A stretch of DNA of 64,000 bases from Ceratodon purpureus. Lineage: Eukaryota > Streptophyta > Bryopsida > Pseudoditrichales > Ditrichaceae. Position numbers and translations under genes: made by a program. Below the pieces are notes generated by a model that saw only the letters and a list, made by a program, of their open reading frames with translations, ran no database searches and had not been told where the DNA came from. Position 1 is the stretch's first letter, and every line of letters starts with the position of its first letter. Location: contig CM026424.1 of the NCBI GenBank assembly GCA_014871385.1, positions 10,118,086 to 10,182,085 on the forward strand, read 5' to 3'. Shown piece by piece: positions 3,926 to 55,000 of the stretch.

Positions 3926-5146
3926 ATGGCACCAAGGCCGTCGAGGAATTTGAAGGAAGATGCGACGGTGTTGGGGGATATGAAGGATGATGTTGCCATG
4001 GATCCGACGCTGTGGGGGAATTTGAAGGACTATGTTGCCATGGAGATCATATATGCGAAGGTACCGTTTCACAAGTTCTTCCAGCTGCGGCTGGTGTGTA
4101 AGGAGTGGAATCATCTGGCTGGCGATCGGAAATTCCTGGAGGATCACTTCAAGGAATACTTGGTACCGGAGCCCTACTTCTACATCCCCGGTGGTTGCGA
4201 ATACTTGGATCCCCGGCCCTACCTCGAATTGCCAAATGGTCGTTGCATGAATGGCTTTGTGACTATTGACATCAACTCCGAGGATGTGGGCTGGATTGGG
4301 CTGAATAACCCTTGGAAGGATCGTGGTGGATGTTGCGCTGTCAATGGTCTAATCTACAGCGAGACGGTGCCTAGCCCTGACTACCTCTCGCCACCAAAGA
4401 GGACACCCGAAGTTGTGCAGAAGAGGGCTGAAAGTAGAAGGCAGGAGGTTTTTAACATCCACACAAGAGTGAGGCACAAGCTGCCTCCGTCGCAGTTGAC
4501 CACAGCTATTCCCGTTGTTGGCATGTTGGTGGACACTTCTGTACGCCCGTATGGTTTCAAAGTGATTCAGGGATGTGGCGACCTTGGAACTCAAATCTTT
4601 GACTCAAGAACGAATGCATGGGAACTTCGACCTTCTAGGCTACCTGCAGGGATAGCTGCCCGATTGGACTCATTCCGTTCAGGGTCTCCCCATTGGAGCT
4701 ACCATGGTTCAGTCAATTGTAATGGCCTTCTCTTCATCGCATGTGACGATGGTGACAAAATTTTGGTCTACAATGAAAAAGAGGACATATGGAGTACGCT
4801 CTATGCGAGTCGACGTGATGCTTGGTGGAGTTTTTTATCCATTGGATCATGGCATGGGAGACTTTTTAAAGCATATCGAGTAATCGATGGCATCGATTTG
4901 ACATGGGACTTGACATGGGTTAACCCATCAAGGCACGAATGGGAGCTGTATGACCAAATGCCTGCAAATCTATGTGACTGGCTTTTCAAGGATTACAAAT
5001 TTTCAAAAGTTGTTCTTGATTATTGTAGAAACTATATTCTCATATGTTATGATTTGACTTCTCAGGAGGATAGCAAGACCAAAATTGTGTTGTATGATCT
5101 TGCTACCAAATCTTGGAAAAAGTTTACCTTCCGTTTGGGGAGGTAG
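3926..5146 (+). CDS. F-box protein, copy A (406 aa)
   Basis: This is a single-exon gene. The ATG at 3,926 sits in a good plant context (GCGCCATGG); the frame is open 24 bp further upstream but without an ATG. Residues about 31-72 form an F-box: a divergent first helix (LKDYVAMEII, where typical members have LP-D-L) followed by the conserved FQLRLVCKEWNHLAGDRKF. The rest, with Trp-rich stretches such as IFDSRTNAWELRP, KILVYNEKEDIWS and GSWHGRLF, looks like a degenerate kelch-type F-box-associated domain. Such proteins act as substrate receptors of SCF ubiquitin ligases, the F-box binding SKP1; the substrate here is unknown. It is a close paralogue of the genes at 12,699 and 48,638. The first half is nearly identical to copy B, while the second half has many substitutions and indels. 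Confidence 0.88.
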   Translation: MAPRPSRNLKEDATVLGDMKDDVAMDPTLWGNLKDYVAMEIIYAKVPFHKFFQLRLVCKEWNHLAGDRKFLEDHFKEYLVPEPYFYIPGGCEYLDPRPYLELPNGRCMNGFVTIDINSEDVGWIGLNNPWKDRGGCCAVNGLIYSETVPSPDYLSPPKRTPEVVQKRAESRRQEVFNIHTRVRHKLPPSQLTTAIPVVGMLVDTSVRPYGFKVIQGCGDLGTQIFDSRTNAWELRPSRLPAGIAARLDSFRSGSPHWSYHGSVNCNGLLFIACDDGDKILVYNEKEDIWSTLYASRRDAWWSFLSIGSWHGRLFKAYRVIDGIDLTWDLTWVNPSRHEWELYDQMPANLCDWLFKDYKFSKVVLDYCRNYILICYDLTSQEDSKTKIVLYDLATKSWKKFTFRLGR

Positions 5147-27661: not shown

Positions 27662-30600
27662 CTATTCCACTCCGTTGGATGTGGACTGGCTTGAAGAAAC
27701 AGCTCGGAGGATTATTTGTACCATGTACTCCTGATCGATGGGCTTTGTTAGGAAGGCATCCATTCCGGCGTTTAGACACTTTCGCTCATCGCTAGCCATG
27801 GCATTCGCTGTCAATGCCACGATTGGCGTTCTGAAAGAAGTGTTCTTCTCAAACTCTCGGATTGCCTTGCATGACTCGTATCCGTCCATCACTGGCATCT
27901 GGAATGGAGTCAGAATATTGTCAATACTCCGAGTGTTTCGAAATGAATCAAACTAGAAACTACAGATCTCAAGCTAGATATGAGTTAGATGGAGAGGTTT
28001 GACTCAGAGAATGACTTGGGATATGTGGAGTGGTTCATTTCTGGTTTAAGTTGTTTGGCAACACTTATACTGGAGAGAAAAAACCAACCTGACAGTCCAT
28101 CAAAATGCAGTCATGTGGTGCTTGATCATTCCGAGTACGTGCCATGACCGCTTCCAACACTTCCTGTCCATTTGAAGCTTCGAAGGTTACTGCACCAAGT
28201 CTTTTCAGCATCGTGACGGCCAGTTTTCGTAGCAGAGGTGTATCTTCTGCTACTAGAATCTGAAGTTTATCTAGAGGTTTGGGAACACCGTTGAAGTTCT
28301 TTTTGCCATTGAGCGGCGCAAGGACTGGAACGGGTCTTTTCACGAGCTTCATGCTTGTTGCTGATGTCTGACTGTTGGCATCGTTATATGGTCGTGGAGA
28401 TGGCCTGGTTTCCATCTCTGTGAAAGACATTTCCTCTGGAGGAGCGGATTTTGCAGTTGTTGGTCTGTGCCTTACGTTCCTTCCTTGCACCACGGAGGAG
28501 GTCGACCGAGGAGACGCTCCTTGTGCTACTGAAACTTCGTTATCACATGCATAGGGGTCGTTCCATTCCTGCTGCTTTGCGTAATTGATTATGTTCGAGG
28601 CCAGAAGCTCCGGAGGGCGCACTTCTAAATATGGCACCACCTCTCCGTCGCGAGAAACCAAGTGGAAGATCTCCTTCAACCGAGCTGGGTGCAAGGGTCT
28701 CTTCACTAGAAATGAGTTCCGAACTGCACGGAGAGCAGCCTTGATGGGCTCGTGAATGTTGGATGCACACACCCACATCACCGAAAGGTCTCCTTGAAGC
28801 TCTCGCCGATGTCTGTCGTTCACATCCAACTTGGTCTCCACCCCTAACCCATCCAAAAATCTAGTCGGTGAACTCATTACAAACCCCGATTCGTGAAGGT
28901 ATTCTTCCAAGTGCTCCGCGCTCACGTCGCTAGGCAGAAGGCTTGTGTCTAGGACCATCAGTTGCCTTATCTGTCCTGTAGCTGGCCGCTCGTCGCTATC
29001 TTTCCAACTTCTCCAAAACTCATATCTGTGTGACCATGAATTACGCTCTCGTGAAACAGACAATTTATTACTAGGTTCTAACTCTGAGTAAAATCCATCA
29101 AGGTTGTCCGAACTTTCCGATCGCAAGTTCTCAAAAAAACCCCTCCTTCCCACCGTAGGACCCCCATTCAGTGCTGCCATGTACAATATTATTTGCTCCC
29201 ATGATTCCACTTGGTGAACATTCAAACCCACTTTGGTAATCCACTTGCATGCAACCTCCCTCGTGTCGGCCTCAGGAATACCAACGATGATCTCGGTGCC
29301 CTGGTAAGACGGTGGAAGGCTGAAGGGAATGCGGTCACTTGGTTCTGCCCGCTGAAAGCAGATGGAAAACTGAAACATCACTCCTGGACCACTTTTGTCC
29401 ACGATCTGTATGTTACCGCCCATCAACTGGACAAGAGAACGCACGATACCCAGCCCCAAACCAGTTCCGCCATGCCTGCACCAAATATACAGAATACCCC
29501 ACGTTTATCACTTAAATCAAACCCTTCAAGGATGTTCTATAATCACATCCCCAGTACTGCAACTTGCAATGGCTAAACGGAGCACGTTGCATATCCTAGA
29601 TCCAATAAAAAAGAGATCAAAACAAGACTACATGCTAATGGAAGAAACCAACCAGAATGATTCCAATCACGAATGCACACTGCTAGAAAATCAATGCGGG
29701 CAAAAAGCAACTACAGCATGCCGCCTAACACCCGAGAAAGAACTTTGTGACGCCCTAGCAAATCATCTAATTGACTAAATTTGACGAAGACAAATCAGAT
29801 TGTACGCTTGTCCATGACATGGTAACCAGAACTTACGTTCGAGTTGTACTGGCATTTCCTTGGACGAAGTTCTCAAACACCTTCTCCCGCAAAGCTGCAA
29901 AATGTACAAAAAGCAGTATCAGCAAGGCATTGTGGATGGGAAAGAGCCTTAGGTATGATTTCAATTCGGAATTTTGAGCATTTCAAAGGTAATCACCATT
30001 TGTTCAACCGCCGACATATCTCACCAACATGGCTACCCACATGACGTGTATTAACAATTGCTCATGCAATCTGAAGGTTGAACATGTACAAGTTCCACAC
30101 AAGCCCACATAAACGCCACCTCGAACAACCTAACAGCCTCACGATTGTAAAAGAAAATCACTCACCTGGCTCAATTCCTGGACCAGTATCATCCACCTCG
30201 AACACCAAAACCACTGCATCAGGCACGCTCGCTGCCTCGGTGGCCTTTTCCAACGAGGGTGGACTGAAACTTCGTTGATGCGCCCTCCCTGACACATCAA
30301 TTTCCGGATTCGCAATACGACCTCGCACCACTATCCGACCTCTTGAAGTGAATTTCAAGCTATTCCCTATCAGGTTTGTGAAGACCTGCATCACTCGAGC
30401 TGAATCGCCAATGACTCTTTTTGGAACATCATCTGCACATAAATACAACCAATTTGAACATCTCAATGTCTAAATGAATATACTGTAATCTGCTTCCGCA
30501 CCAACATTCTCAATTAAAAAAACCATGAAAAAATAAATTACATAGAAGTGAACACAAGTGCAGACTAAATACAGGTAGACGCCATGAAAAATAAATTGCA

Positions 30601-33600
30601 CCCAGTAAATATAGTCCGAATGAGTAATGCACTGACCTACCACGTCCAGAGAGATGAAAAGGTTCTTGTTATCACACTGCACGGAAAACACGTCAATCAA
30701 AGCAGTAAGCTCTGCCTCTAGATCAAACTCTGCTTTCTCTAATACCAGCTTTCCTGATTCCACCTGTGCACAAAACACCAATGCCATATCAACAAAATGC
30801 TCCCCATTCTAGACAAAATCGCAATTGAAGACCCTCCAATGTCAGCAGACACAAGAACCAGGAATGAAAATCCAGGAAGCAGGCATGAAGTGAGGGAGGC
30901 CACACCTTTGCAATATCAAGGGCAGAATTCAGTAAAGAAACAAGAGCTGTGGCGCAACGGTGGATTTGCCGAATGCTTCCCTCGTGCTCCACAGTCAAGT
31001 TCTCCATCAAAAGCATATCCAACAGACCAATGATGCATGCCATAGGTGTTCTCAGCTCATGGCTGTCCACCAAAAACACAACGTATCGTCAAAAAACCTG
31101 TATGAATTTAAACAAGCCTTCCACAGACCAGAGGAAAGTAATACATAAAACACTATATAAAAATTACAAAACAAAAAACAAAAACTAACGAACTGGATTG
31201 TAAACAACATTCACCTCATGCTTGATAGAAAGTTTGTCTTCGCGTCTCTGCTTGCTTCTGCACGATTCTTGGCCTCCGATTGCCTCAGAATCTCTGCTCT
31301 CAGTTTCTCTTCCGCCTGCACTTGCTCTACCAGCAGATAGATCAAACTGCAACCGATGACCACCACACCTATGGAAAGGAGAGGTAGTGATATCCACGTT
31401 ATGCGAGTGTAATAGTCCATGGGGCCCCAGAAACTGTGCCTCGGAATCATCACAACCACAGATAGCTTTACTGTTTTGAAAGTGTAAGGCCAACTGTCCA
31501 CGGAGTACCGCTTGCCCTTCAAGTACACGTCAGATACATGTGTTTCGCTCATCACCAAGTTAGCCAACCCGCCATGATTCTCAAGAAATTTCTTTCCATC
31601 GTTCAAAACAGAGTTACGGTCCAGTGGCATGTTCTCGCACTCGCTTTTGTTGCTCAAAATGCACACCGACGGCTCTGACGAGAATATAAGATTTCCTTGC
31701 TCATCTGTGATAAAAACGCTTCCCCCTGCCACACGTTATGTCACAAATATTAGTTCACTAACCCAAGTAAAAGGGTTTGTATTTACTTCAAACCTGCACT
31801 ATGCTGCTGCACTTTCAAAAAATAACAGCAACGGAAGCACACAAGAATCACCAGAGGAGACATTATGATCTGAGACTCGTTCATACAAAATCCACGCGCT
31901 AGACACTCTATTTAAGAACTCATCAACAAAAGTATGAGTATGAAAAAAGTAGAAAGCCAGTAAGCACATACCCTTCAACTCCAGAGATGCGATGAAACTA
32001 TTGATGGCAACAGCAGTCAATGATGAGTGCACCAGAGCCACTTCGTTCGAGAACTTCGATTTCTTAGCAATGCCACACTGCACGAACGACTGTCCACCTG
32101 CATACAAATTGTTGTCAGCCAATATCTAAAGGTAACACAACCACTCACTGGTTTCACTATAGTACAATACTGCTTCATGACGTTCATAAGACCACTCCTT
32201 GCAACTTTTCTACCTTAGCTCTTCCTAACCAAAACAAGGTATGCAAATAAATCTACGCCAATATGGTATCATTCGATTCTTCAAAATTCACTAGCTCAGC
32301 ATAAGAAATATCTCAAAACACCACCACAAATAGAAAGATCTGCATTAGTTTAAAAATTTGCGAGGCTTCGATGGTACTATCAATCTACAGCGAATTAGCC
32401 ACCAATGTTCAGTGCTTACTTATCAAGCTCCGACCAATGGTCCAAGAAATATCGTTGATAGGATAAGTAATAGCTTTCTGAAACCAAGGTGTCTCGTGAA
32501 TAGCATGTGGAAAACTTTGAAGTATGGGTGGTCCCGATGGGTTTCCAGTGACCTCCGACACATACTCCTTGTAGTAAACCGGTGTGGAACTCGTCTCATT
32601 TGCGTACAAATAGAAAGTCCCTTCCAAGCCTTCTATTTCATTCGTCAAACCCCGAGCATACACTGCTGTGAGCCCATTCAGAGCAGTCACGCCCAACGAA
32701 GTTACCATTGGGAGAGCCTTGAACACTGCCCAAGAGGCATCGCGAATCTGCAAAAGCAAGCCCAGCTCATATGCACAATGTATTGGAATTTCGAAAACTC
32801 TTCTAAATTAACTTCCGATGCAATGAAGAACAAGGATGATGAAGTGAAACAGAATGCACAACTCACTGCTCTGCAAGTGAGTTCCATGAGGCACTAGAGA
32901 TCTGACCCATTTGCTTTAGACCACTCTGAAAATGATACAATGCAGGCATTCTGGAAATGAAATCTTTGCTGCCTAGACGCAACAATCAGACATGCCACAA
33001 TCATCCTGCATCTAGGGTTCGATTCTCTTATTTGATCTCGAGTTTTGCACCACGTACCTTGTCGAAATTCTCTTGAGTGAAGTCTTCTCCCAAGAGGTTC
33101 TTGTCAATCAGATTTGCAACAACCATCGATCCATAGCTGTTCATCATAAATATCTCGTCCAGAAGCTTTGATATATTTTCTAGAATCTCCAGCCGCAGAG
33201 ATTGCGAGAGACTAGCAACGGCACTCTTTGGATAACTATGTGTGAAGTACCAAGTGCTAATAGTAACAAGCCCCACCAACACAGCCACCGTAATCTGTCT
33301 CAAACAACTCATCACTCATCAGCTTACACCCCGACCCTCAATCACTTCAAATCAAACACGAACAAATACAATCCCTGACCCTATGCTAAACTCCAATCTC
33401 CCAAATAAACGCTGATTCTAGCAACCAGGCTCAAAGCGTAAAACCTCAACTACCCGCTCTCCATTTTCTCAAACCAAACACTCAATCAGGTGAACATTGA
33501 ACGACTGAAAATGGCTTCCACAAAGTTTCTCAGCAGTCTCACCATGATAACAACACGCGACACGGTCAGATTGCGGCTTGGATGTGGTAATTGCTCCATT

Positions 33601-33671
33601 TCTGGATCCAAGGGCCCATACGGCGGCTGCCTCTTCCCGGGCAGGTTCCATAATGTCGAAAGACGAAACAT
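27662..33671 (-). CDS. HK1: Hybrid histidine kinase, AHK1-class osmosensor-like (about 1,187 aa, 11 exons)
   Basis: Exons, high to low: 33671-33543, 33294-33058, 32747-32420, 32097-31972, 31725-31215, 31062-30906, 30763-30637, 30432-30166, 29894-29837, 29475-28089, 27898-27662, all in phase. Membrane segment 1 (about 42-62, VAVLVGLVTISTWYF) and segment 2 (before EEKLRAEILRQSEAKNRAEA) bracket an extracytoplasmic sensor of about 300 residues. It is not a CHASE domain, so this is not a cytokinin receptor. The H box is SHELRTPM (His about 445), followed by the N box (FTNLIGNSLKF) and the G boxes (VDDTGPGI, GGTGLGLGI). A degenerate receiver-like linker follows, then a complete receiver: acidic AEDTP, phospho-Asp about 1107 (LMDCQMPVMDGYE), Thr 1139, Lys 1161. 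Sequence around the H box and in the receiver matches Arabidopsis AHK1 closely. AHK1 signals osmotic/water status through a His-Asp phosphorelay. The first-exon choice is the least certain part. Confidence 0.93.
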
Positions 33672-36562
33672 TCTCGACACGCGCAGACAGCCTGCTATGA
33701 GACGGACCGCAAACAATACTCTACTACTAACAGCTCTCCTGCTAGAAGTGCCTTAAGCGCCATCACCTTGCCACACTCTCCTATTCCCAAATACTCCAAT
33801 CTCAGCACACACACCCCGCCCTCTATAGCCAGCCACCGTCACAGAAAGCAATTGTATCCGCCCACCCGCATTCCACTCTAACCTGATATCCATCGCATCC
33901 TTCACCTCAACCTCCACCCCTCCACTGTCAAAAACACAGCTCGTTAGCACACCAAACACTCAGATTGCCTCAGCTGGACTGGCATCACTCCCACATCTTC
34001 TCTACCGTACACATCCAACCAAATTCCCAACTACACTCCAATTGGGCAATCCAACCCTCAACCGAAGAGCCACCTCTTCCAACCACAGTTCAAATACCGC
34101 AACTTGCATACAACCACGAGTCCCTTACCTCTTCTAGAAAATAATGGCGGTTAACTCAGCTATTCTCGGCTCAAACTCATCACCCTCTTCACATCTCCGA
34201 CGCATCCTCTCCGAACCACAATCCATCATCTTCCCGCATCCACACCCACCCACCTGAGTCCAAAACCCTAAGTTTTCTACCACCATGTGCCTCCCCAAGG
34301 TCATGAAAATCTGAAGAAAGTGCACCTCCACCTCAGATTGCGACAAAGCGTGACCGAATCTCTCCCCAGCTGCAGAAATGATGCGAACGAATTCTGTCGG
34401 CGTGTAATAAGTTAAGATTTCTACTAGCTGCACAGTGAGGGAGGGCACCTTGAGATGAGGAGCCTGGGTGAGGAGAGAGTTGTGCGAGCACATGATCTGG
34501 AGAGATGCGGTGTTGCATGCCTGACACAACATGGAACTGTAGACTCGTCCCCGGACTCGGTCACCGAAAGAGGGCTGGAAGTGGGACTCGCCCCATCTCT
34601 CTCTCACTCTCCCTTGGTGGGACCGAAGAGAATAAATTCTCGTGATCTGGCTAACTTATGCTCCTCCGAAAGATTTGTGGCTCTGGCTCTCACACCAGCG
34701 CCAAGTTGCCAACCGTACGGAACCCATGCACGCCCTTTTCGCAGTGGCGGCATCAATGGCGGCAACAGGGTGTGGGGCACAAGGAAGACCCTGCGGCAAA
34801 AAGGAGAGATTGGGGAATCGCTCAGATCATCTTTCTCGTGCATAGTGATCCAGTAAAACTTCTCACTTCAGTCAAAGGAGAAACCAAAGGTGGAGAAGTA
34901 AAAAGGACACACAACATGCCGTCTATTTCTGCGTTGCTAGCTTGTTTTTTCGATACCAAAAACCTTCCTTTTTTGCAGGAGAGTTGACTCTGGCATGGTG
35001 GTTTCACATGGGTTAACTTTCACTTCGGTAATTCACATCTTTGAGCTCATCGATAAAATGGTAAGACTGTAAATGCAACGGAAGTGGTACATCGTGACGT
35101 GCTAATAATACGACATCAGTGATGCATCACGCTGATGATCCGAAGGAGCTCTTTACGCTGGAAACCCGTACCGTTTTATGGATACCATTTTGGCACGGTG
35201 TGATGATGAGTTTGGGAGTTTGTGCAGGACTAGGTGAGGCGATCTGCGATGGAAAGGTTTCTGATCAGCGGAGAAGCGAGAGTGTGATTGCGTACTGTGT
35301 TCGACATTGGTGGACGACTACTTGTGGAATGAGCTATGTGATGAGTTCGGCGGTTGGCAATCAGTGGGCACTTGTGTAAGTTTTGTAAAGTGGGCGTTCG
35401 TGGTTTGCTAGACAAGCGCCGGAAAAGATGACCATGGGAAGGTCACCGGGAATGTGAGCACCACCATGGTGGAGAGCTTCCGGAATGAGATGAGGCGGAA
35501 GAATGACGGCTCGACGGATTATATGTCAGTCATGGAAACTCGAGGGACAGTTTCCTTCTGCCTTGGTCGAAGCTTCAGTCTGATGGTGCTCCCTAGTTTA
35601 GCAACAGTGCTTGGATTCTCCACAACCGTGAACTTCGATGGAATATTGTGTTCGACGGTTCTCCTTGTCGATTCTCTAGGTCTCCTACAATTTTGCTGTT
35701 TTCACCGGCCGTACTTAAAGAGGACAAGTAGCAAGTTGAGTCGTGAGCTGTTTGTCTGAGGCTTGCAAGTTGATGTTACTGCTGTGAATTGCTTAACAAG
35801 CTTTGACGGCACATGAGTTGTGTGGTTGAGTTACAGCTACCGGTCTTGTAGCTCCTACGTGACGTTGTACTTGAATTGCAACAGCGCTTAACGTGCAAGT
35901 TCACAGAGTGGTCATCTGGATGGACGCACGTTTTGGGTTTCTGCAACTCCGATATTCTATATTCGATTGAGGAATTGCTCCAGAAGCCTCCGATATCGAC
36001 AGATGGAGGAGTGGTCCACCCAACTGGGACGTCGAAGGAGTCTTTCCAGAGGCTTGTCGGAGGATTGGAGATTGGCCCCATATCGGAAGGATGCCAGAAT
36101 CAATTGCGTGGGAAACACAGCTCCGAAGTCCAGGCAGAATGTCGGACACTTTGAGCGTTGTCGATGTGCTTTCAACTGGGTTGTGGATCCCAGAATATAC
36201 GTTCTCTTCTGTCCAGCTCTCTGTCTGTACAGACGACTCGCAACCTTGCTCGTGTCAACCTGTGGGAAATGGCAAGCTTGCTGCGCAAGTTGGGTACACA
36301 ATTTGGTAATCCCTTGCCCTGGAAGGTGCCCCTGTCTGAGTAGTTCATTTTTGGATTGAATTGTGAACTTTGTCAGGCTCTTCTGATCATCCTTTTATAG
36401 TTTTCCTGACCGTCTTAGTTGTTGCTCCCTATTGCACTCATTGGCGCTTAGTTAACGATTGTGGCGTTTCTATTTGTCAATTTCATTAGCGTGAAATGAC
36501 GCTTACACTTACACCTGGATTGATTGATTAAATTATTCCAGAAGTTTTGAAAGACTCGTTGA
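33672..36562. other. Intergenic region between HK1 and the protease gene, with uncertain 5' exons
   Basis: Divergent upstream region of HK1 (minus) and the protease gene (plus). Open frames at 34,134-34,607 (minus) and 35,454-35,759 (plus) have no recognisable family, and the first has no ATG at its start. From about 35,790 to 36,345 the DNA aligns, with gaps, to 41,040-41,575 of the decayed second copy (for example CAAGCTTTGACGG, GTGGTCATCTGG, GCGCAAGTTGGGTA). It is therefore probably transcribed 5' exon sequence of the protease gene, but I could not fix a frame. Confidence 0.45.
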
Positions 36563-39078
36563 AGAACTAGTCGAGAGTTTTATGGTAGAGCGAAGCAAGG
36601 GCAGGAGTACGATAATCGACTCTCTATGGAGGATGCCTCTGGAGCTCACGCAAGTACTTCCAGATTGGATTCAGTTGAGTCCATGCCAGTCACAGACCTT
36701 GGAGGTAAGTCGGATTATCCTCCGGATGTGTTGCTTGATGAGATTTTTGAAGACCTCGGGAACATGCCAGTAGATTTTGTTGGACTGCTACAGTTCTAAA
36801 TATGACGAGTATTTATAATAAATTTACACTCTATTTCTAGAAAAAAATCACCAATTGTGGAATATTTTGAGCGTGATGCAATGAGCTTAACTCAAGCTCA
36901 GGCTAAGGTACCATGTGGCAGAAAATTATTTCAGTTGCTACACTTTTAGGGTTGATAGATCAGGTTCATCTGGTATGCCCAAACCCTCCTGTGCTGTTCT
37001 AAATGATGGGCAGCAGAAGATTTTTACTGAATCAAAACAATCACAAGGCTTAACTAAAATGTTGGTGCGGAAGATCTAACATATCCATGCTTCTCAGGTG
37101 TTATACGAGACGAATATGACCTTTTTCTCAGTAACATTTGGAAAGACGAAAATCAAAAACACGGAGTGCAGATCTTTCCTGGAGACGGAGGTGATGCTAT
37201 GACAATATTCACAAACAATGATATGGAGAGTTTACAATCTGGAGGATTTTTGAGTGAAAGCGTTATCGACTTTTACATCAGGTGAGTCTCCCTGGCAATA
37301 TTGTTACTTCATTCAAAAATCAGATGATTCTTTAGTGGCATCTACACACACGCCTTCCAAAATAGCTCTTCATACATCACTTTCTGATCGCAGGTTTCTG
37401 CAGAAGGAACTTCGCTCTGCAGACAAAAATCGTCTACATTTCTTTGATTCCCGTTTCTTTTCGGTTATTAAAGAAGGCGATGCATGCGCAGAGGCTGAAC
37501 AATGCAAGGCTTCTTTTGAAAGAGTGCAGAAGTGGACATGGGAAGTGAACATATTTGAAAAGGAGTACGTTTTCATTCCGGTTTTCCGAAGGTAATGTCG
37601 TGGTTATATTATTTCCTTACGTAGAAGATTACCATTGCAGCTAAGTTGTGAGGTTTTGGCTTTCTAGTATGATATATCAGAACATAACATAATAGAATTG
37701 AAATTTAGTTTACCCTTTAGACAAGATTGTTGCTACTACAGGCAAATAATTCTCTGTCCATGATGTGCTGCAATCTGAGGCTAACTTTGCGGCAACTTTT
37801 TGTTGAATTGCAGCTCACACTGGAGTTTGATCATCTTATGTCATCTTAGTGGCCTCGCAAGTTCAGCTGGTACGATCTCAGTTGGTTTCTGACTCTCTGC
37901 ATATTTTGTAGTCTACAATTTGCTTATAATTTCTTTGATTGTGTTAACTCGTGTGGGTGCTGTTTCGCAGATAAACATGAGGGTCCACCTTGTATTTTAC
38001 ATTTGGATCCCGTGGAAGGCAAACATGGGAACCTTGAAGGCTACATTCGGAGGTGAGTCCATGTGCAGTAAAGAACAAGCTCATGAGCCTGCCCCTGGAA
38101 TTGGCATAATTCTTCATTGTATGATGTTTTATGTTTTGTTAAGATGTCTGCTGCTACAAACTTTGGTATTTAATTCACAGGCTGAGCATCTCATCAGCGA
38201 CCTTATCATGCATATGATTCTTAGCTGCAAGTTGAATTTTTCTAAGTCTAGCATTTCAAGATTGAAACCAAACGCTGGAGTGATCTGTTTTGCCCATGGC
38301 TAAAACTTTTTGAATACCTAGCCTCAAGCAGTTAATGAACGTTGCTTGAAGAACTAGGTGAATTAAAGGTATGTAACTTTGCTTTGTTGGTCATTGAGTA
38401 TCATCATACGTTTCCTCATGTCCTCTCATGTGGGGTATGCAGATATATTATACACGAATGGAGGGAGAGGTACCATGATCCAAAAGTAGATCAATTACTG
38501 GCATTGTCCCAAATGCAATATAAAGAAGCCAAGGTAGGTGAACGATTCCACATCACATTTCGTAAGGTTACCCCTATATTGACAACATATGAGCCGTTCA
38601 ACAAAAGTGCCCTGCTTTGAAGTGTTGTTTTCTTTACTCCACTGATTTCGAGTTTCAGATGCTTGGGTTTAAATTCCACAAAAATTTCGGAGCTCTTACT
38701 GCGTTCCTGTGATTGAATTAGGTTCCGCAACAGGAAAACCAGTACGACTCTGGCATCTATCTGCTACATTTTGTTGAACTATTTCTATTTGAATTACTAG
38801 ATGTCGGCATCGTGCCAAACGAAGACAGTCCGTTTACTACGTCTTGGGCTGCATCTGAAGTTTCTGCTAAACGAAGGGATATCAGTATCCTCATCCAGGA
38901 GCTTGCTCTAGCATCCAGAAGAAAATTTCGAGAATGCCAAAGACGTTGTTCACGAATCAACCATCGCACTCAAACTCCAGAAGAACTTGAGACACGCTTG
39001 GATGTCAATGGTGAACTTCCTCACTTCGGTCTAATTTTGCAATCAATTATGGTAATAGATGGGTTCCTCTATACATAA
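36563..39078 (+). CDS. SUMO protease-like protein (C48, SPF/ULP2 type) with Cys-to-Ser active site; 5' end uncertain
   Basis: Exons 36563-36704, 37098-37281, 37394-37591, 37814-37869, 37971-38052, 38443-38533 and 38722-39078 join to 369 codons in one frame. C48 landmarks, in order: GGFLSESVIDFYIR; LHFFDSRFFS; NIFEKEYVFIPVF; SHWSLIILCH with the catalytic His (codon 37,818); CILHLDPVEGKHG with the catalytic Asp (38,006); IIHEWRERYHD; PQQENQYDSGIYLLHFVELF with the conserved Gln. In active SPF1/SPF2/ULP2 and SENP6/7-type proteases the last motif reads DCG; here the nucleophile codon 38,749-38,751 is TCT (Ser), one base from TGT. The fold should still bind SUMO, but hydrolysis is probably lost (inference). 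The N-terminus is incomplete: the frame has a TGA at 36,560. The C-terminus either stops at 39,076-39,078 or splices at 39,051 toward the next ORF. Confidence 0.85.
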
Positions 39079-39325
39079 CATTTGTTTATTTCTTGGATTA
39101 TTCTCACAGATTAAAATATGTAGCATGTGTTTGCAAGCCACAAGTATCAGTCTTATGAACTCTTCCTCATGTAGTTACAAATTATTCAACTCAAATTTAG
39201 TCCATGTCGCAGTGAGCTAACCACATGAAAGAGATGTTGTAAACTGCTTGAGATCTTCCCTCGTCTATGTGCACTGCATTGACAAGTCTGAATTTGTTTT
39301 ACTGTTCTTAGGACAACGCAAAGAT

Positions 39326-40129
39326 ATGCATATCATTAGCTCAAAGCAGTTCACTTCCGGAGTTGATGAGAGGGGACATGCAGAACATCAAAAAAGTGGT
39401 GAAGTTACAATTACTAATCAACAACAAACTGGAACTGAGCAAACTGGCCAACAAACAAGTGGAGAAACTGCGTTTAATGATCAACGTCAAAAACTCGAAC
39501 AACTGACGTCTGCAACCTCCAAACCTGTGAAGGAAAGAAGTAAGAGATGCAAGAATTGGTCATTGGCCGAGACTCTGATATTGCTCAGTTGTAAGAAAGA
39601 AGGAGGACGTTTTTGCAAGGGGAGGCAGACCACCACGAATTGGAATGCAATTTCGCAGGAGATTGGGAACAAACTTGGCACTGTTCCGCCGACAGGAGTC
39701 CAATGCCGGCTTCGATATGACACGCTCTTGAAGGCCTACAAGACAGCAAACATCCATTGCATGGAGAATGGCAAGCGATTTTCTGAACTGTACCATGGCG
39801 AACTGAAGCTGGCAACGAATTTGACTGAGGATTGGTACAACGCCATCGACGAGATGTGCCGCGGTTTGCCTCACAATGCGAGGTCCCCGAAGCGTGTGAA
39901 GTACACTCTCAGTGTTGATGATGGTGGTCCAACTCCGACGAGCCCACGTGATTCACCACCTCGTACTCCACCGATGTCTGAGGACTATTCGGAAGTGACA
40001 ACGGCTCATGACGCATCAGTACATGCAAGTTTATCTATCAGTCGTTATTACATGCACAAGATGTATGAGGAACATCTGGTCTCTCACGCACTCATTGCAA
40101 ATTCGCCGACGTTGTCCTTACACATTTAG
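39326..40129 (+). CDS. Trihelix (MYB/SANT-like) DNA-binding protein or C-terminal module (267 aa)
   Basis: The ORF begins at an ATG at 39,326, following a splice-acceptor-like TTCTTAG at 39,311. It starts with a Gln/Thr-rich low-complexity region. It then has a trihelix-like domain (about residues 95-200): CKNWSLAETLILLSCKKEGG, TTNWNAISQEIGNKLG, QCRLRYDTLLKAYKTAN, TEDWYNAIDEMCRG. This is the pattern of three spaced Trp helices of plant GT factors. A Pro/Ser-rich segment (TPTSPRDSPPRTPP) and a short helical end follow. It lies only about 250 bp after the protease frame, on the same strand. With the obvious splice (39,051 to 39,312) the frame is off by one, giving a 64-codon tail that stops at 39,504. 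Either this is a separate short-spaced gene or the join uses another site. Confidence 0.7.
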   Translation: MHIISSKQFTSGVDERGHAEHQKSGEVTITNQQQTGTEQTGQQTSGETAFNDQRQKLEQLTSATSKPVKERSKRCKNWSLAETLILLSCKKEGGRFCKGRQTTTNWNAISQEIGNKLGTVPPTGVQCRLRYDTLLKAYKTANIHCMENGKRFSELYHGELKLATNLTEDWYNAIDEMCRGLPHNARSPKRVKYTLSVDDGGPTPTSPRDSPPRTPPMSEDYSEVTTAHDASVHASLSISRYYMHKMYEEHLVSHALIANSPTLSLHI

Positions 40130-41039
40130 CAAACTTTCTGAGATCCCTCACATATCTAAAACGAAAAAAACAAAACTCACTGTCAGGACAAAGTAGGTTC
40201 TAGCAGCCATTCTGCTTCAATCACAGGCTAGTTACATGGTTCGAGTTTCTCTTCTGTGTGTTCGAAGAGAGAACCAGTGGCCTTTTTGAACATTGCTTCA
40301 ATTTTGCAACAAGTTTGTATATTACCTGAATTCTGTTGTGTCCATGCTGATGCGATACATCTGCGGTCAGGACACCACGAGGGCTGAAATTAGACTCCTG
40401 AGATGGGTACCCAGATCACAATTTCTTAGTCTGAGTTCAAGCATTAGAAATGATGAAATCTCAAAGCTCAGGCTAGGGTGGCATCGACTATTTTGAAGCT
40501 AGTGTCTGTTGGTAGAGACTGGGTTATTGCATTCACTCAATTGTGAGAGAAGCTAACACGGAATAGAAAATGATTCAGCCTTCGGTCAGAGAACTAGGCA
40601 ACACCTAACCCATTGCTTCTGAACCGATAACGAGAGCTGGTGATCACTAACCTACAATGGTCATGTGTACCGGCTTGGATTGGGAGCAAAGAACGTGAAG
40701 GAGTCGACCGGGAAGACGACGGATATGAAGTACATCTAAGCCCTAATTCTTTCCTCGCATTAGCCAAGAATCTCATTCTTCCTCTTTCATTTTCGTTGCT
40801 TGGATTCTCAACAATTTGCCCTCGGCGACGACTCTCCCTAAGTTTCTCTAAGTTGCTATTAGCTTCGCTCTCTTCACCTCCCATGCCTAACAGGAGAGAT
40901 TCTCAAAGAAAGGGTAGCAAGCTTTGTTAGGGTTTTACCACAGACAGACTGTCTGTACATAGTAGAGCTACAAGTACCGGGTCGTAACACATTCAGTCTA
41001 TCAATCTCCATCTCACGCGTTTTGTTTGTCTGGGTTTAA
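40130..41039. other. Intergenic
   Basis: Probably the 3' UTR of the trihelix gene, followed by the 5' flank of the duplicated copy. A minus-strand frame at 40,594-40,884 begins with an ATG and is Arg/Glu-rich, but it has no family resemblance; I do not call it. Confidence 0.4.
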
Positions 41040-42909
41040 CAAGCTTTGACGGGGGATGACAATAAGCATCCATTCGGTGATGGAGAGGTGTTATTTTCAT
41101 TGCCACAATGCTCAACCTTCACATACACGGAATGGTCATCTGGCCCAGAGAATGGTGAGTCCGGATGTTACACTATGGCGCATATGCTTTGGAGGTCTGT
41201 GGCACCGATTTTCAGTACTGGAATTGCTTTGACAAGTCGCCAAAATGTTTAAAAACATGAGTGGCCTACCCATATTGGACCTGATTTCGGGGTCCTTCCG
41301 CAAACTGGTTGGAGGAGGAGAGTTTGCATCCGATACAGATGGGCCCGCTGTATCGGATGCGTTTCAATTTCAGAATCCCTGGCTTCGGATGCGTGGAAAA
41401 ACAGAGTTACAACAGTGGGTGCCAGATGGAACATCGCCACGCAGTCTCCGACAGTTTGAGAGTTGGGGCTCTGCTTCTTAGTCGTGGCTCGGGCTGTGAT
41501 TTGAGTCTGCTTTGGTCGCTTCATTGAGCGCAAGTTGGGTATTCAATTTCGTGAACTAGCTCCAGATATGGAAGGTACTCTCTCATCTTTCTCTCATTTT
41601 TGATGGTCCTTGTCTAGCTCAGGCTATTTCGGTGAGCCTGACGGCATCTGTGAATTGTAATTGAGGTCAATCTTTTCAAATTTTTATCAAGGTTGGTCTA
41701 GTTAGTGGTTACTTGTCATCATCGTATTCATAGCGTTTAGTCAACAAATGTTGTGTTGTCGGTTTCAAATTCATTTCGCTATTACTAGATTACAGGATTG
41801 GATTCTAGCAGAGCTTTTGGAAGATAGCTGAGGATATAGTCGATGCACAAAAGAACACCATATGGAAATGGTTGTTTACTCTTGGGTTAGAAGGGATTCT
41901 ATTTTTTTCGTTCTAACCAGAGTTTCTACGTCAGAGAGCTTGATGATGCTAGAAATGCAATTGAAGGAGGACAACGATTTTATCCAGGAGTTAAATTTTA
42001 AGACCTCTGTTTCAGACAAATCAGAACGTGGAGGTAAGTTGGATCTAAAGATGGCGTTTGACAGTAGCTTTTAAACAGCTCAGGAACATGCCGATTCACG
42101 TCCTTGATTCAAATTGTAGCGTGGGGTTTTGAATTTTCTTAAACATCACATGGAGTATTGAATAACTATGAAATAATGGTAGGGAAGTTCATCAATCAAG
42201 GCATACATGTTTTTGTGTATTGAGCGTGGTTTAGACAAAAAACCATTTCAGTTGCTACACTTATAGTATTGGTATATATTAAGCTTTTTGTGAAATGCAC
42301 ATGTATGCCGAGTTCCTTCACTGTCGCTTGAAAGGACAGCCAGCAGCAGGTCGTTACTGCTTCACCACAATCACAAGACTGAACTGAAACATTGCTGTAT
42401 AGTAATCTTGCATACAAAAGTGCTCTCACATCCATGATTTTCAGGTGAAATACAAGACGAAGTTCCACAACACGAAGTAGTGCTGGTCTTTCCTGAAGGC
42501 GAAAGTGATTCTGTGAGAATCATAAACAGTGACATTGAGAGTTTACAACCTGGGGAGTTTTTGAGTGGAAACCTTGTCGACTTCTACATCAAGTAAGTCT
42601 CTTCATCAATATTGATCCTGTATTTAAGAATCACATGATTCGTTGTTTTGCATCCTCACTCCTTCCAGAATAAATATTGGTTCTTCATGAATCACTCTTT
42701 GATCGCAGGTATCTGCTGAAGCGCCTTTCTTCAACGAGCCAAAGTCGTTTTCATTCATTCAAGAGCTCTTTCTACTCGGAACTTGTGAAAACTCACGGTG
42801 CTACAAAATCCGAACAATGTGAGGCTTCTTTTGAGAAAGACTTGCTGGAGTTGACTGGGGAGATTAACATATTTGAAAAGGCGTACGTTTTCATTCCTGT
42901 CAATCAAAG
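41040..42909 (+). pseudogene. Truncated duplicate of the SUMO protease-like gene
   Basis: This is collinear with 35,790-37,591. The upstream part (41,046-41,580) and the exon equivalents 42,445-42,592 (reads GEIQDEVPQHEVVLVFPEGE ... SLQPGEFLSGNLVDFYIK) and 42,709-42,909 (YLLKRLSSTSQSRFHSFKSS ... NIFEKAYVFIPVNQR) are recognisable, with splice sites preserved. It ends exactly where the exon with the catalytic His should follow. No His, Asp or Cys region is found downstream, where unrelated repeats begin. It cannot encode a working protease. Confidence 0.8.
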
Positions 42910-43149
42910 GTGATAGCGCTCTTCTGATACTGAATTGTTTTCTACCAGCTTATTTGTTGCAGGTTGTTGTGAGATGTCTTTCCAGAATGACATTGTTTCT
43001 GTCTGTTTATACGGAATTGCTAGTACTTCAGCCAAAAAACTGTCATATATAAGAAACTTTTCTGTACGTAGAGTAGTGCAGTCTGAAGTTCTCATCTTGT
43101 GGTGAGATGTTGTTTTCGACAAATTGTTTTTTCCAAAAAACACTAGTTG

Positions 43150-43495
43150 AGTGGTAGATTTCAAATACCTCTCTGTGGTCAAATCTCTTGAAGTTGAAAT
43201 TTTTACCCCATATTATCAACATAGAGATGATCTTGTGCTAAAATTTTCATGGCCAAATTCTCTTTTTCCATTCTTTGTGAGGGTATCAAAGTTGGTAGTA
43301 TTGAAGTTTTGTTTCTTAGCTACACATGTTGGTAGATTTTAAATATCTTTTTTTGTGTAGATCTTCTGGCCTTGAAATTTGGTACACGTGTTATTAACTT
43401 AAAGATGATGTTGTGGTAAAACTTTCATGCTAAAATACCAGTTTTTGAGCCCTTGGGAGGGTGGCAAAGTTGGCAGCAATGAAGCTTTTTTTCCC
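43150..43495 (+). repeat. Degenerate direct repeat, two units of about 175 bp
   Basis: GGTAGATTTCAAATA at 43,155 and GGTAGATTTTAAATA at about 43,331 start two related units, both with AGATGAT-TTGTG-TAAAA-TTTCATG and GAGGGT-CAAAGTTGG. The function is unknown. Confidence 0.65.
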
Positions 43496-44357
43496 TTACG
43501 AAAACAAGAATTCGTAATTGAGCTGTACCTGACTGTACAATCGGGAACCAGCTAGAATGAAAATTGCAAGGGTCTCATCAAGGAGAGTTCAAGATTTGAG
43601 TCTCCTCATATCAATCAGAGAGAGCAGAATGCAAGAGTATGGTGAACCCAAGAGAGTCTATGTTTGAGTTCTACTAGGAAATTCGACAACCAGGAGATAG
43701 AGACGCTAAAACGTGCTTCCTTCATTGCCCAAGGCTATACCCATGTTGATAAAAATTGGATACCAGAACTAGAAAGTATGCAGCCTACCAAATAAGGTAT
43801 ACATACCCATAACCGATAATGCACCCATTGCAGATTAGGAGACTTCCTGGTTGCTGAGCAATGGAAAACTAGTAACTGATAAATAAATATTAGCCCTTAT
43901 GACTGTTACAGAAATAAATACACTTATGTTTGTTCACTAATTTTATTGTTGTTGGTCATGGGTGAAGCTATATGTTGGTTATTGGATTTGATTAACTTTT
44001 GAACAATTTTTTTTTAGTAATTCTAATTTTACTTAATTAATTTTGGAAAAAAGCTCATTCTTCATGAACCTTATTTTCCGATGCACTAAAAATAACTCCT
44101 TGATAACTCAAGATAAACTATGCTGAAATGGTTATAGGTGTATATTCTTTAGGTTGCTGCTGAAACAATAATGAGATTAGCACAATAAAAGGTAATCGAC
44201 AAAAGTAAGAAGAATGTGTACACTTTGGAATGCAAGAACTTGCTCAACTATTGATGAAGTTTGGAATTTCAAATTGCCTACGTTGGAATGCTACTGAGGT
44301 GTACTTCAATATCACAAAAAAAACATATACATATAAATCTGAAAATAAATAGGCATG
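43496..44357. other. Intergenic
   Basis: I see no supported gene or clear repeat. Confidence 0.4.
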
Positions 44358-47024: not shown

Positions 47025-48637
47025 TTAACAAACAAAATTGACTTCAATTACATCTTTCCATCACTTATGTGCACGTTTTGCAAAAGGGCTGAAACTGGCA
47101 AATAGCTAATCACTTTTATGGTTCACTTTATTGTGCTTCTCCCCTTCCATCCACAATTCAAATAAAATACTAAATTACACTCAAGTACATATGCATTATT
47201 ACTAATATCACTAAGTTACCATTATTTCTAATATCAAAATTCATCGTTGCCCAAGTATTCCAAGTTAGTAATTGGGATGCCCGGCAACAAGAGTTCGGGC
47301 CCCAAAAATACTATTTTTGTCTTTATCTTTCTGTGTTTCTCATTTTCTCTTAATCTTCGTCTTTAAAAATTTTTATTTTTGACTTTTTATCTTTAACTTT
47401 TTCTTCGACTTCTTGCCTTTGTCTTTTTAGCTCTGTCATTTTATCTTTGTCTTTTTACTTTTTACTTTTTTACTTTTTCTTTTTCTTTTAGTCTTTTACA
47501 TTAGAATAAATTAAGTATACTTTTACTTTTCAATAATTTTAGAGGAAAATTATTAGTTCTATAAATTCTAACTGATACTCAAATATAAAATTACAAAAGA
47601 TGAATAACAACATATGTTGTTTCTTGTCCTATCTTCGCTCCTAAAAGTTACAAAGTGTTCCTCGAATTCTCAAATCACTTGTTGCTGGGATTTGGAAGTC
47701 TCAGGTTCATGTGCTGCCAGTGCTGGTGAGTGTGACCACATGCATCTGATACCATCCACATGGCTAATTCAAGCTTCTGAGGTTCATCCTTTAATTTAGG
47801 GCTTCTGTTTCGTTTTTGTGATGTGAGAATGAGTTGTTGTTGTTTTGGTGGTGGTGTGAGAATCTGGGTTTCCAGGTGTGGGGTACTGCAAGGGATCATT
47901 TCTGTCTTTGTGTGTTTGAGGTTGTTGTAGAGTCGACCGTGAGGACTGTTCTTAGGTTGTCACGGTACAATGACGCCATGGTTTCTTCTGCATTGCTGGA
48001 GGACGATTTGGTGCGATGTTGAAAAGCCTTGTAGGCTAGCATGCTTTTAGTTTTGGTGATCAGTGGACGCAGAACTTCCGAGCTTGCGGTTTGAGTCATG
48101 TTGGTGTAGTGTGATTGAAGTGCCAGGATTGAAGTCGCTTTCTAGGGCATTGTTTTTGGCCTGCGTAGATGAGATGCTTGCAGAGTGAAAATCTTTAGAG
48201 CTTTTTGTGGTGAGAGGTATTACTTGCTGTTGAATTGAACGTTTGGAGATTCATGGTTGGGTCACGGCCATCTAGATTGGAATTTGGCAGGTTGGTCGTT
48301 TTCAGGATGTGTTTTGTGATCATGGGCCCATGCTTGTTCGATGAACTTAGGGTATTCTGGAAGATGTTCTGAAAGTAGCATTGAGAGGTTTCTTTTGCCT
48401 GGGTTGATGAAGCTTGCTGAATGATAGTCTTGTGGTCGAAGTGTGCCTTGAACTAAAGAAACGATGAATTTGTTGATTACTGGTTCCATTGTCCCACTCA
48501 TCTTGGAAGCAATTTGCAACTGCAGGAATCCAGGCCTCGATCAGAGTTGTGCATTGGGAATTTCTGCAACCATAGATACTTGAGAAGGGAATTTCTGCTG
48601 ATAAGGAGCTTCATTGTCGACCGAGGGCGAGAGCGCC
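47025..48637. other. 5' flank of F-box gene C
   Basis: This is homologous to the A/B upstream DNA but has several small indels and substitutions, including a shorter pyrimidine-rich tract (about 47,315-47,500). No separate gene is supported. Confidence 0.6.
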
Positions 48638-49846
48638 ATGGCACCAAGGCCGTCGAGGAATTTGAAGGAAGATGCGACGGTGTTGGGGGATATGAAGGAT
48701 GATGTTGCCATGGATCCGACGCTGTGGGGGAATTTGAAGGACTATGTTGCCATGGAGATCATATATGCGAAGGTACCGTTTCATGAGTTCTTCCAGCTGC
48801 GCCTGGTGTGTAAGGAGTGGAATCATCTGGCTGGCGATCGGAAATTCCTGGAGGACCACTTCAAGGAATACTTGGTACCGGAGCCCTACTTCTACATCCC
48901 CGGTGGTTGCGAATACTTGGATCCCTACCCCCAATTGGTAAATGGTCGCTTCATGAATGGCCTTTTGACTATTGACATCACCTCCGAGGATGTGGGCTGG
49001 ATAGGGCTGTATAACACTTGGAAGGATCGTGGTGGATGTTTCGCTGTAAATGGTCTAATCTACAGCGAGACGGTGCCTAGCCCTGACTACCTCAGTCGAC
49101 AAAAGAAGACACCCGAAGTTGTGCAGAAGAGGGCTGAAAGTAGAAGGCAGGAGGTTTTTAACATCCACACAAGAGTGAGGCACAAGTTGCCTGCGCCGCA
49201 GTTGAGCACAGCTATTCCGGTTGTTGGCATGTTGGTGGACACTTCTGTACGCCCGTATGGTTTCAAAGTCATTCAAGGATGTGGGGACCTTGGAACTCAA
49301 ATCTTTGACTCAAGAACGAATGCATGGGAACTTCGACCTTCTCGGCTACCCGTAGGGATAGCTGCCCGATTGGACTCATCTCGTTCAAAATCTTATGATA
49401 ATCCTGGATTGTGCAAGCATGGTTCAGTCAATTGTAATGGCCTTCTCTTTATCAGAACCGAGGATTGCAAGGAGATATTGGTCTACAATGAAAAAGAGGA
49501 CGTATGGAGTACGCTCCGCGTGCCTAATTATTTTGTACGGAGGTTTTTTTCCATTGGATCATGGCATGGGAGACTTTTTAATGCAGGTCGACTTGGAGTA
49601 TGCGGTTTGACATGGGATGTGGTTAACCCATCAAGGCACAAATGGGAGCCGTATGACCAAATGCCCGCAGATGTACGTGACTGGCTTGCTTGTGGTTTAA
49701 ATTTTTTCTTAGATTGTACTGATTTCTCAAAAAATTATCTTCTCATATGTAATAGAAGGACTACTGAGGATTGCAAGATCAAAATTGTGTTGTATGATCT
49801 TGCTACCAAATCTTGGGAAACGTTTACCTTCCGTTTCGGGAGGTAG
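48638..49846 (+). CDS. F-box protein, copy C (402 aa)
   Basis: Single exon, ATG in the same context as A and B. The N-terminal 93 residues, including the F-box (about 31-72), are nearly the same (FHEFFQL for FHKFFQL). A four-residue shortening follows CEYLDPY, and the C-terminal half carries many substitutions. It shares the KSYDNPGLCKHGSVN block with copy B. The frame is intact to a stop at 49,844-49,846. Inferred role: SCF substrate receptor, target unknown. Confidence 0.88.
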   Translation: MAPRPSRNLKEDATVLGDMKDDVAMDPTLWGNLKDYVAMEIIYAKVPFHEFFQLRLVCKEWNHLAGDRKFLEDHFKEYLVPEPYFYIPGGCEYLDPYPQLVNGRFMNGLLTIDITSEDVGWIGLYNTWKDRGGCFAVNGLIYSETVPSPDYLSRQKKTPEVVQKRAESRRQEVFNIHTRVRHKLPAPQLSTAIPVVGMLVDTSVRPYGFKVIQGCGDLGTQIFDSRTNAWELRPSRLPVGIAARLDSSRSKSYDNPGLCKHGSVNCNGLLFIRTEDCKEILVYNEKEDVWSTLRVPNYFVRRFFSIGSWHGRLFNAGRLGVCGLTWDVVNPSRHKWEPYDQMPADVRDWLACGLNFFLDCTDFSKNYLLICNRRTTEDCKIKIVLYDLATKSWETFTFRFGR

Positions 49847-52063: not shown

Positions 52064-55000
52064 TCAGCTGAAGTGATCCTGTGAAAATTGAGCATCCCAT
52101 TTCCCAGACTCAGTACTACTGAAAATCTCTTTATCTTCATAAGCGCCAGCTTTACTTCCGTTCAAATTGGTGGAAGTAAGTGGTGCAGCTGGTACTCCAT
52201 TGTCTAGCAATTCATTAGACTTATCTGTAGTCCACCACGCGCACGGATACCGATGTTGTAGAAAATGCTGCAGAATCTCAAAATCGGCAGCATCGTCCCA
52301 GATGTTCTCCACTGGGATGTCCCAAAACCCCTTGGTATCAGCAGGTGCGAAACTATCCAACAACCGGATTACCTCTTTACCTCTGCGCTTATCGTTGCAC
52401 ATCAAGGCAAGGCACTCCAAGGCTGTCTTTGATACTTCATTGTTTCCTTCCATATCAAGGACTGTATCGGCTAGTTTCTGAACAACACTCACAGTTGATG
52501 TAAGTTCCACAGTTCGGGGGCTCAGCCTGATCAATCTCAGCAGAAGCATGAGGCTACACATCCTTGGGTCAGTGCCAGCAAAGCCAGCATCCGCTTTGGG
52601 AACATTCAGATCCAGAAAATCCACCAAGGAGTGGATTAGGTCCTCCGAAACAATGATATCGACGATGTCTTTATGGTTGGCGATGGAGTGAGTCAGAATT
52701 ACCACTGGTTGGGCAAGCATACGAGCTTCAGTCCCGGTGGAGCATATGTTGCGGCTCACCGCGAGGAAGATGTCAATGTAGGAGCGGCCAGCTAATAAAT
52801 ATGGTCGCCCTTTGAAGAGCAACAGGAGCGAAAGTATAAGCCTTCTCAGAGAATCGAGATCGTCCGCATATGTGCCCAATACAATAGCCTTCTTCACCTC
52901 TCGAAGGAAGCGTTGTTCAAGAGCCTTGCCAAAAAAGAATTCGGGTATCCTAAGGAACTGATCCAAAAAGAAACCCCCCAAATACAGTTCCGGCACATAT
53001 TGGGCGTCTTCTTTTATATTCCTGTAGACTGGCCTTTTATCGCCCTGTAATACAGTGGCAAGTACCCAGCGGGTAAACACTGGCTGTTCCAGTTCAATAG
53101 ACCATGACCCAAGTCCTGCAACCAACTGGTTCTTCACGAATCCTTGCAGTTTAATAGCCTCCTCAGTAAGCAGCTGCTTAACAGAACGACGAGATTCATC
53201 GTCCCACACGAGCCTTGGAAGGTACACTGTCTCATTGTACATTTCACAGGCTTGTGATGGGTTGTGCGCTAGAGTGGACAGAAGCTCCAGAGGCAATAAG
53301 GAAATCAAAGTTCGAAATACAAGCGGTTCTGTCCCGCTGTAGCCCGGCTCAAGGAGGTTCATAAGCTCGTCTATATCTGTAGTAACCCTGTGGATTTTGG
53401 ACTCGCTGAACAGATCGTTAAGCACAGTGGAATTATCTCCAAGAAAACTTACACGAGAAGTGACCCCACTTAAACACAATAAAAGCTGTCCAAGTAAGCA
53501 TGCTGCCATTAGCCTCTGATGTGGGGTTATTCTCTCGGTCTCCATAATCCCAGTTCGCAAGCTCGGTAGATCAACATTGCAGAAGATGCATAACAATGGG
53601 AAGAGTACTCCGCTGCTGGAGAAATAGTTCGTCATCTCTACGGCAGCTTTAATATTTTCGCTCAAACTATGTAGCATATCAAGAGTGGCAACAAGAGCTG
53701 CTTCTGTTTCTTCACCTTTGTCTTCAGTCACGGCATCCCAAAGGTATATCCCTGCCAGCCCGAGTAGATTTGATTGAAGAATGACGATCTGTGATGTCTC
53801 GTCTTGTGCCACCGCCTTGAAAATCAACATAATTTCGGTCCAAACTTTGGGTGCGCAATGTTCTATCGACGCAACTTCCAGGAAGGTCTGCAACTTCAGA
53901 CCTTTGATCAAATCATTCCTTCCATGGGACGCTGCGTATGTCAGGCACTCCTTTAGTGCACTCAACACAAGGACATACTTTTCAAGCTCAGCTGCTTGAC
54001 CGCGCTGCTCTTGCACTCCTTCAGAAAATATCACGTGCTTGTCTTCATATCCCTCCATTTCGATCTCAACCTCCGTTGCACTGACGACATTTTGTTCCCC
54101 CTCAAGGTACTCCATCATTAGATCCATAAACACGGGATCATTTGGAAGATCAGCTGCCTCCCATTTCCCAGACGCAAGATGGTTCACGAAAACTCCACCA
54201 ATTACAAACTCTGTTTGAAGACAAGCATATTCGTATTTCTGCAACCATTGCACTTCATCCTCGATAGCCAAATCCTTCTGTCTCATAGTCTGGTCCAGCG
54301 CCCTCTTACGAAACTCGGCACGCATATCCCCAGTCCATACCGTAGTCGGGTTTCGAATGTCAGACCCTGCCATGGATATGAATTTACCAAGATCCTCATC
54401 ATTTTCCAGGCAAGACAGAAGAGACCTCGGGATTATATTAGTGAGTGAACCAGATTGGATTCCCTCTGCTCGTACAAAAGAGCCAATCACATCTGCAGCC
54501 AAAATTGGTAGTGTTGATTTTGCAGCGAATTCAGACTTTAAATCAGCATTCGGTGATGGGATTAGAAGCAGTAATAGCAAGAGATGAAAGCCTTCATCAA
54601 TGAATCGCCGACTGTAATTTGAATCTCCTGCAAAATGCTTCAGAGAACTCAATGCAGCGTATGACACTGGGCTGGGATCTCTTGGAGGGTATGCCATAGC
54701 GGCGCTGACAGCAGAGCTCAAAGCCCATTTCATGCCTTTCTGCCACCGCAGGTCTTCCCATAGATGCTTCCTCCCCACCTGGTTGGAAGATATAAGTTCC
54801 AACACGGACAGGGACCCTGCAATTGCAGAGTCGAGGTTGTTGTTGGCGCTCCATTGAGACCCAAGTGAAAGAATGTCCAATGAGAAGTTTAATGATGTTA
54901 GGGGTAAATCTTCAGCCTTGGTACTCGCAGCGACAACCTTTCGAAGAACTTCGACTGCAGATTGCAAGGTGTCTATACAGACTTGAGGAGAGCTCTCGTT

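Follow-up and report, generated by a model that had tools for sequence, protein, structure and literature searches.

A predicted moss ULP2-type SUMO protease homologue with serine in place of the catalytic cysteine and a fused trihelix domain

Introduction

Among described proteins, the closest to the gene analyzed here are plant SPF1 and SPF2, members of protease family C48 whose ULP2-type domain, with its His, Asp, and Gln residues, it shares, whereas it differs from them in having Ser for Cys and in carrying a trihelix domain. In its available part, PMC11371177 describes the SPF catalytic triad as conserved throughout, and confines an SPF-like ULP2 group to bryophytes, lycophytes, and ferns. 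The lineage and the domain type of our gene fit this group and, compared by description, it possibly belongs there; neither a trihelix fusion nor a loss of the Cys is named for the group in that part of the paper. The same text names a missing Cys among plant SUMO proteases only for DeSI proteins, and rice DeSI1 and a Polypodium DeSI2 isoform are thus natural examples of catalytic Cys loss, but DeSI proteins are of family C97, whereas the protein described here is of family C48. For Arabidopsis, the available part of PMC6117582 reports the catalytic triad in all ULPs.

The same change of nucleophile has been engineered in Ulp1 (C580S) and in SENP2 (Cys to Ser). The present case differs from these mutants in being natural, in affecting a ULP2-type domain within a DNA-binding fusion, and in that a SUMO-contact Phe is changed as well. 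Outside family C48, the papain-like protein silicatein has Ser at the position of the catalytic Cys. A natural Ser is also found at this position in the papain-like SERA5, for which a non-enzymatic role is described (PMC4671257, available part). Unlike our protein, both belong to another protease family and have no link to SUMO or DNA. Among the listed titles and abstract openings of open-licence papers, we found no report of a ULP-trihelix fusion and none of a natural Cys-to-Ser C48 protease.

In this study, we analyzed a stretch of 64,000 nucleotides from Ceratodon purpureus (hereafter the window) together with the genome assembly from which it comes, and describe a gene that encodes a ULP2-type domain with Ser at the catalytic position, followed by a trihelix domain.

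Materials and methods

The analysis covered the window and its own assembly (362,488,568 bases in 151 contigs, of which C1 to C13 are each at least 16 Mb long and C6 is 110 Mb), which was the sole eukaryote genome searched. Relatives were sought with the catalytic exon, and their gene models were taken from spliced alignment, some of them being 5'-incomplete and uncertain in the linker. A profile search with PF02902 gave 132 exon-level matches; the catalytic residue was read at 43 places, the other matches being mostly element-like frames. The 43 places comprise 35 Cys and one Ser from a main listing of 41 rows, after removal of five non-motif rows (C4:7529320, C4:7704575, C4:7731591, C4:16798904, and C6:47544401), plus seven added Cys places (L025, L027, and L047, together with L036, L037, L038, and L040); L015, L018, L032, and L057 were unreadable. 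Selection was estimated with a GY94-like codon model (F3x4) on a fixed tree over 348 codons. SENP1 residue numbers were transferred to SENP2 by an offset that we assume to be constant.

Results

The coding span in Table 1 has GT-AG borders and a consistent phase across all its predicted exons. The initial annotation had described a clean frame of seven in-phase exons, and this description holds for 37098-40129; an additional ATG exon, which joins in phase upstream and is matched by no relative, raises the number of coding exons to eight. Both this first exon and the junction of exons 7 and 8 were chosen among several possibilities and are putative. The translation of 38722-38780, VPQQENQYDSGIYLLHFVE, is free of stops, and the proposed replacement of the catalytic Cys is confirmed by the codon, TCT, and by alignment of the encoded Ser240 with the catalytic Cys of human SENP7. 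A frame artefact as the source of Ser240 was ruled out, all exon junctions being in phase. The other C48 landmarks are also where they had been placed: His156 (in SHWSL), Asp185 (in HLDPV), and Gln234, the second Gln of VPQQ.

Table 1. Predicted features of the ULP2-trihelix locus and of the adjacent half-copy (positions in the window)
Feature	Position	Strand	Remarks
Whole coding span	36626..40129	+	Eight exons, 598 residues plus stop; predicted gene model
Exon 1, putative, with ATG	36626..36704	+	Joins in phase upstream; matched by no relative
Exon 2	37098..37281	+	Spliced reading
Exon 3	37394..37591	+	Spliced reading
Exon 4	37814..37869	+	Carries His156, codon 37818-37820
Exon 5	37971..38052	+	Carries Asp185, codon 38006-38008
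Exon 6	38443..38533	+	Spliced reading
Exon 7	38722..39010	+	Carries Gln234 (codon 38731-38733) and Ser240
TCT, Ser240 at catalytic Cys position	38749..38751	+	Translation and alignment
Exon 8	39312..40129	+	Linker, trihelix domain, stop
Peptidase_C48 domain (spliced)	37247..38799	+	Pfam PF02902, residues 50-229 of 571-residue query
Trihelix-type Myb_DNA-bind_4 domain	39551..39784	+	Pfam PF13837, residues 380-457 of same 571-residue query
Tandem half-copy of ULP gene, 3'-truncated	42447..42909	+	Exons 42447-42592 and 42709-42909; without catalytic exons

The Peptidase_C48 match (Pfam PF02902) has an E value of 1.2e-26 and a score of 94.4 bits against a cut-off of 20.7. In the last exon, overlooked in the initial annotation, lies a match to Myb_DNA-bind_4 that exceeds its cut-off (28.9 bits against 27, E value 1.6e-6), and by this profile match the trihelix part is a predicted DNA-binding domain. 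The best PDB match of the window protein is human SENP7, which is of the ULP2 class (E value 2.7e-26). SENP7 scores 96 bits and SENP2 50 bits, and the protein groups with the other ULP2-trihelix copies in a tree of 14 rows; the assignment to the ULP2/SPF type made in the initial annotation is therefore borne out. Among the PDB matches, three SENP2 sequences read DSG at the nucleophile place, and we take these entries to be engineered mutants. Classified by sequence, the window protein is a C48 homologue rather than a C48 peptidase, for it has the profile match, the His, the Asp, and the oxyanion Gln, and lacks the Cys nucleophile.

Eight relatives were found in the assembly, six of them at 7.45-7.73 Mb of the contig that contains the window. 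The layout of the window protein, a ULP2 domain and behind it, in the same frame, a trihelix domain, recurs in seven of the eight according to spliced alignment, the exception being pH on C2, and Pfam confirmed both domains in the two relatives that were scanned. These ULP2-trihelix genes with a catalytic Cys are mostly clustered, at C4:7.45-7.73 Mb and C4:16.80 Mb (L002, L004-L008, and L019). Identity of the ULP domain between the window copy and the relatives is 45-50%. In the 14-row tree, which has two SPF-like Cys copies as outgroups and is without any ULP1-type row, the window copy and the eight relatives form a group with moderate support (92/87, not starred), within which the eight Cys copies cluster (86/92, likewise not starred); the branch of the window copy is long. 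A trihelix stretch of the window protein, QCRLRYDTLLKAY, is identical in relatives pA and pB, and it is therefore plausible that the window protein shares DNA sites with its Cys relatives. Stand-alone trihelix relatives on C3 and C12 (L073 4197-4724 and L074 3930-4355) resemble the window trihelix roughly as closely as the fused domains do, and no ULP domain was found within about 4 kb before them.

The catalytic codon is TGT in all eight relatives and in both SPF-like copies, and the eight relatives also have the His, Asp, and Gln. Cys orthologues together with a frameshifted, untranscribed locus had been named as the outcome that would speak against the initial annotation; the eight relatives within the same genome do have the Cys, but the frame of the locus is intact. 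Across the genome, 42 of the 43 readable C48 places have Cys at the catalytic position and the window copy alone has Ser, a second Ser copy having been sought among these places and not found. Even L047 and L056, whose motif exons contain stop codons, retain the Cys. In alignments of other ULP2-like copies, Tyr or Asn takes the place of the His in L013 and L027, and Asn that of the Asp in L020, L027, L028, and L034. The reading frame of L013, L020, and L028 is interrupted by stops or a frameshift, and that of L034 by stops. In addition, three contigs carry C48 frames of 239 residues that do not differ from one another (L036, L037, and L038), with many similar matches on C6; a mobile element that was active recently may have spread them.

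On the window branch, which starts before the Cys loss, omega was 0.326, compared with 0.333 elsewhere, and an omega of 1 was rejected (2dlnL 35.3, p 2.9e-9). The same branch gave 0.34 for the ULP part (p 1.1e-6) and 0.26 for the trihelix part (p 4.3e-4). For the shorter window tip after the split from the tandem half-copy, based on 98 codons, omega was 0.56 and an omega of 1 was not rejected (p 0.17); the half-copy branch of the same 98-codon split gave 2.68, which is not distinguishable from 1 (p 0.21). The purifying selection asked about in the initial annotation is thus significant over the whole branch but not over its later part. In neutral simulations, the frame stayed open in 0 of 1000 runs at 0.22 substitutions per site and in 28 of 1000 at 0.05. 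Where the relatives and the SPF-like copies are otherwise invariant, the window copy is changed at 7 of 50 columns, and five relatives on shorter branches at between 2 of 45 and 4 of 50. These codon patterns indicate that selection has acted on the gene through much of its past, and they leave the Cys-to-Ser change undated.

Residues known to contact SUMO were compared as well. According to the available part of PMC3216068, Asp451 of yeast Ulp1 forms a salt bridge required for SUMO binding, and D451N abolishes this binding. Its place is taken by Glu80 in the window protein, by Asn in the six readable relatives (pB-pG), and by Asp in both SPF-like copies. The Asn of pB-pG is the same change as D451N. 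Phe496 of SENP1 packs onto the SUMO hot spot (PMC12687455, available part), and its counterpart is Phe throughout the eight relatives and in the two SPF-like copies, the window protein alone having Arg (Arg108). At the place of SENP1 Lys514, the window protein has Trp and the relatives have Gly. SUMO binding may be weak because of Arg108 and this Trp. The genes read as SUMO in the assembly (L069 and L070) have the partner arginine. For SUMO binding by the window ULP domain, the residue evidence is thus mixed: the likeness to a substrate trap drawn in the initial annotation is supported in part, by the active-site residues and the acidic Glu80 but not by the SUMO-packing Phe, which is replaced.

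Downstream of the gene lies the tandem half-copy, missed by the initial annotation, which has an open frame over both exons and then runs into AT-rich and GGTA-repeat DNA. A mobile-element origin was unsupported: a repeat scan of 33000-44000 (minimum arm length 25 bases) gave one inverted pair, 81% complementary and downstream. Elsewhere in the window, three closely similar forward-strand frames of 413-417 residues (3893-5146, 12666-13919, and 48605-49846) match the F-box profile, two just below and one just above the Pfam cut-off. A histidine-kinase-like gene on the reverse strand (28065-29504), with partial HATPase_c and receiver-domain matches that are both below the Pfam cut-offs, extends, on our reading, upstream via open frames to about 32800. 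Also on the reverse strand, 52064-55132 is an open frame of 1022 residues with no Pfam match at 0.01, which we take to resemble GRV2/RME-8-type proteins.

Discussion

The reading that we prefer, tentatively and with a probability of about 0.45, is that the locus is an intact moss gene whose product, a ULP2/SPF-like SUMO protease without catalytic activity, carries a trihelix domain and would act at the DNA sites of its Cys relatives. The protein probably no longer cuts, and it may serve as a brake or as a binding adaptor. Cys-to-Ser versions of ESD4 and ELS1 are inactive in the laboratory (PMC6759571, available part), and so is Ulp1 C580S, which nevertheless traps SUMO conjugates, with a preliminary Kd of 12.8 nM for SUMO1 (PMC3216068, available part); loss of cleavage is therefore expected here. 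By analogy with this known chemistry, Ser240 would be unable to cleave SUMO, and the case for the loss of cleavage is strong. That Ser240 instead serves as the nucleophile of a serine-type ULP with an altered substrate would agree with the retained His, Asp, and oxyanion Gln but is very improbable in view of the same inactive mutants. We give as little credence to an assembly or base-calling error that conceals a TGT codon. TCT is one base from TGT and a single assembly was read, but the copy has diverged throughout, as its identity to the relatives indicates, a second change at a SUMO-contact place is likewise its own, and an error at just this base would be improbable.

More weight belongs to a recent loss, in which the Cys of a redundant duplicate was changed late and decay is beginning, perhaps in this strain only. 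We regard this as possible, though less probable than a dead but functional protein. The Cys of all eight relatives, the later-branch omega, which is not different from 1, and the disappearance of the SUMO-packing Phe all fit such a loss, and so do two observations that count against a functional role, namely the dead half-copy next door and the broken ULP2-like copies elsewhere, decayed copies being common in this genome. However, the eight exons, with their splice borders and the trihelix, show no damage, the three other active-site residues are retained, and omega over the whole branch is low. Purifying selection on the ULP part itself over the whole branch, and the retained cleft residues, also make it unlikely that the trihelix and the general fold are what the protein is retained for, with the ULP part as an inert scaffold that binds nothing, SUMO included, at the old cleft, even though such a scaffold would be consistent with two SUMO-contact places being occupied by Arg108 and Trp and with the stand-alone trihelix genes on C3 and C12.

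If the gene does encode a functional pseudo-protease, the trihelix part would direct it to DNA sites of the kind that its Cys relatives use, where the ULP fold would occupy the place without removing SUMO and would perhaps hold SUMO conjugates. In this way it would shield SUMO marks or compete with the Cys copies. In the mechanism that we favour, deSUMOylation would be blocked or delayed by a DNA-tethered pseudo-protease, either through competition or because conjugates are held. A further-reaching proposal, which we consider rather doubtful, is that the protein is a SUMO trap that arose in nature and has become a gene regulator, reading or protecting SUMO marks at the sites of the Cys relatives, so that a single family would contain both eraser and reader. 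USPL1 is a counter-example to trapping, since its Cys-to-Ser change is reported to abolish SUMO binding (PMC6759571, available part). With Asn at the place of Ulp1 Asp451 in pB-pG, the ULP2-trihelix family may prefer another modifier or another form of SUMO.

In summary, a ULP2-trihelix fusion would amount to a SUMO protease that carries its own DNA address, which is noteworthy even if the Ser copy is decaying. The dead relatives of enzymes often turn into regulators, and a natural Cys-to-Ser ULP2 protein with eight Cys relatives, in a DNA-binding fusion, offers a ready comparison of eraser and pseudo-enzyme.
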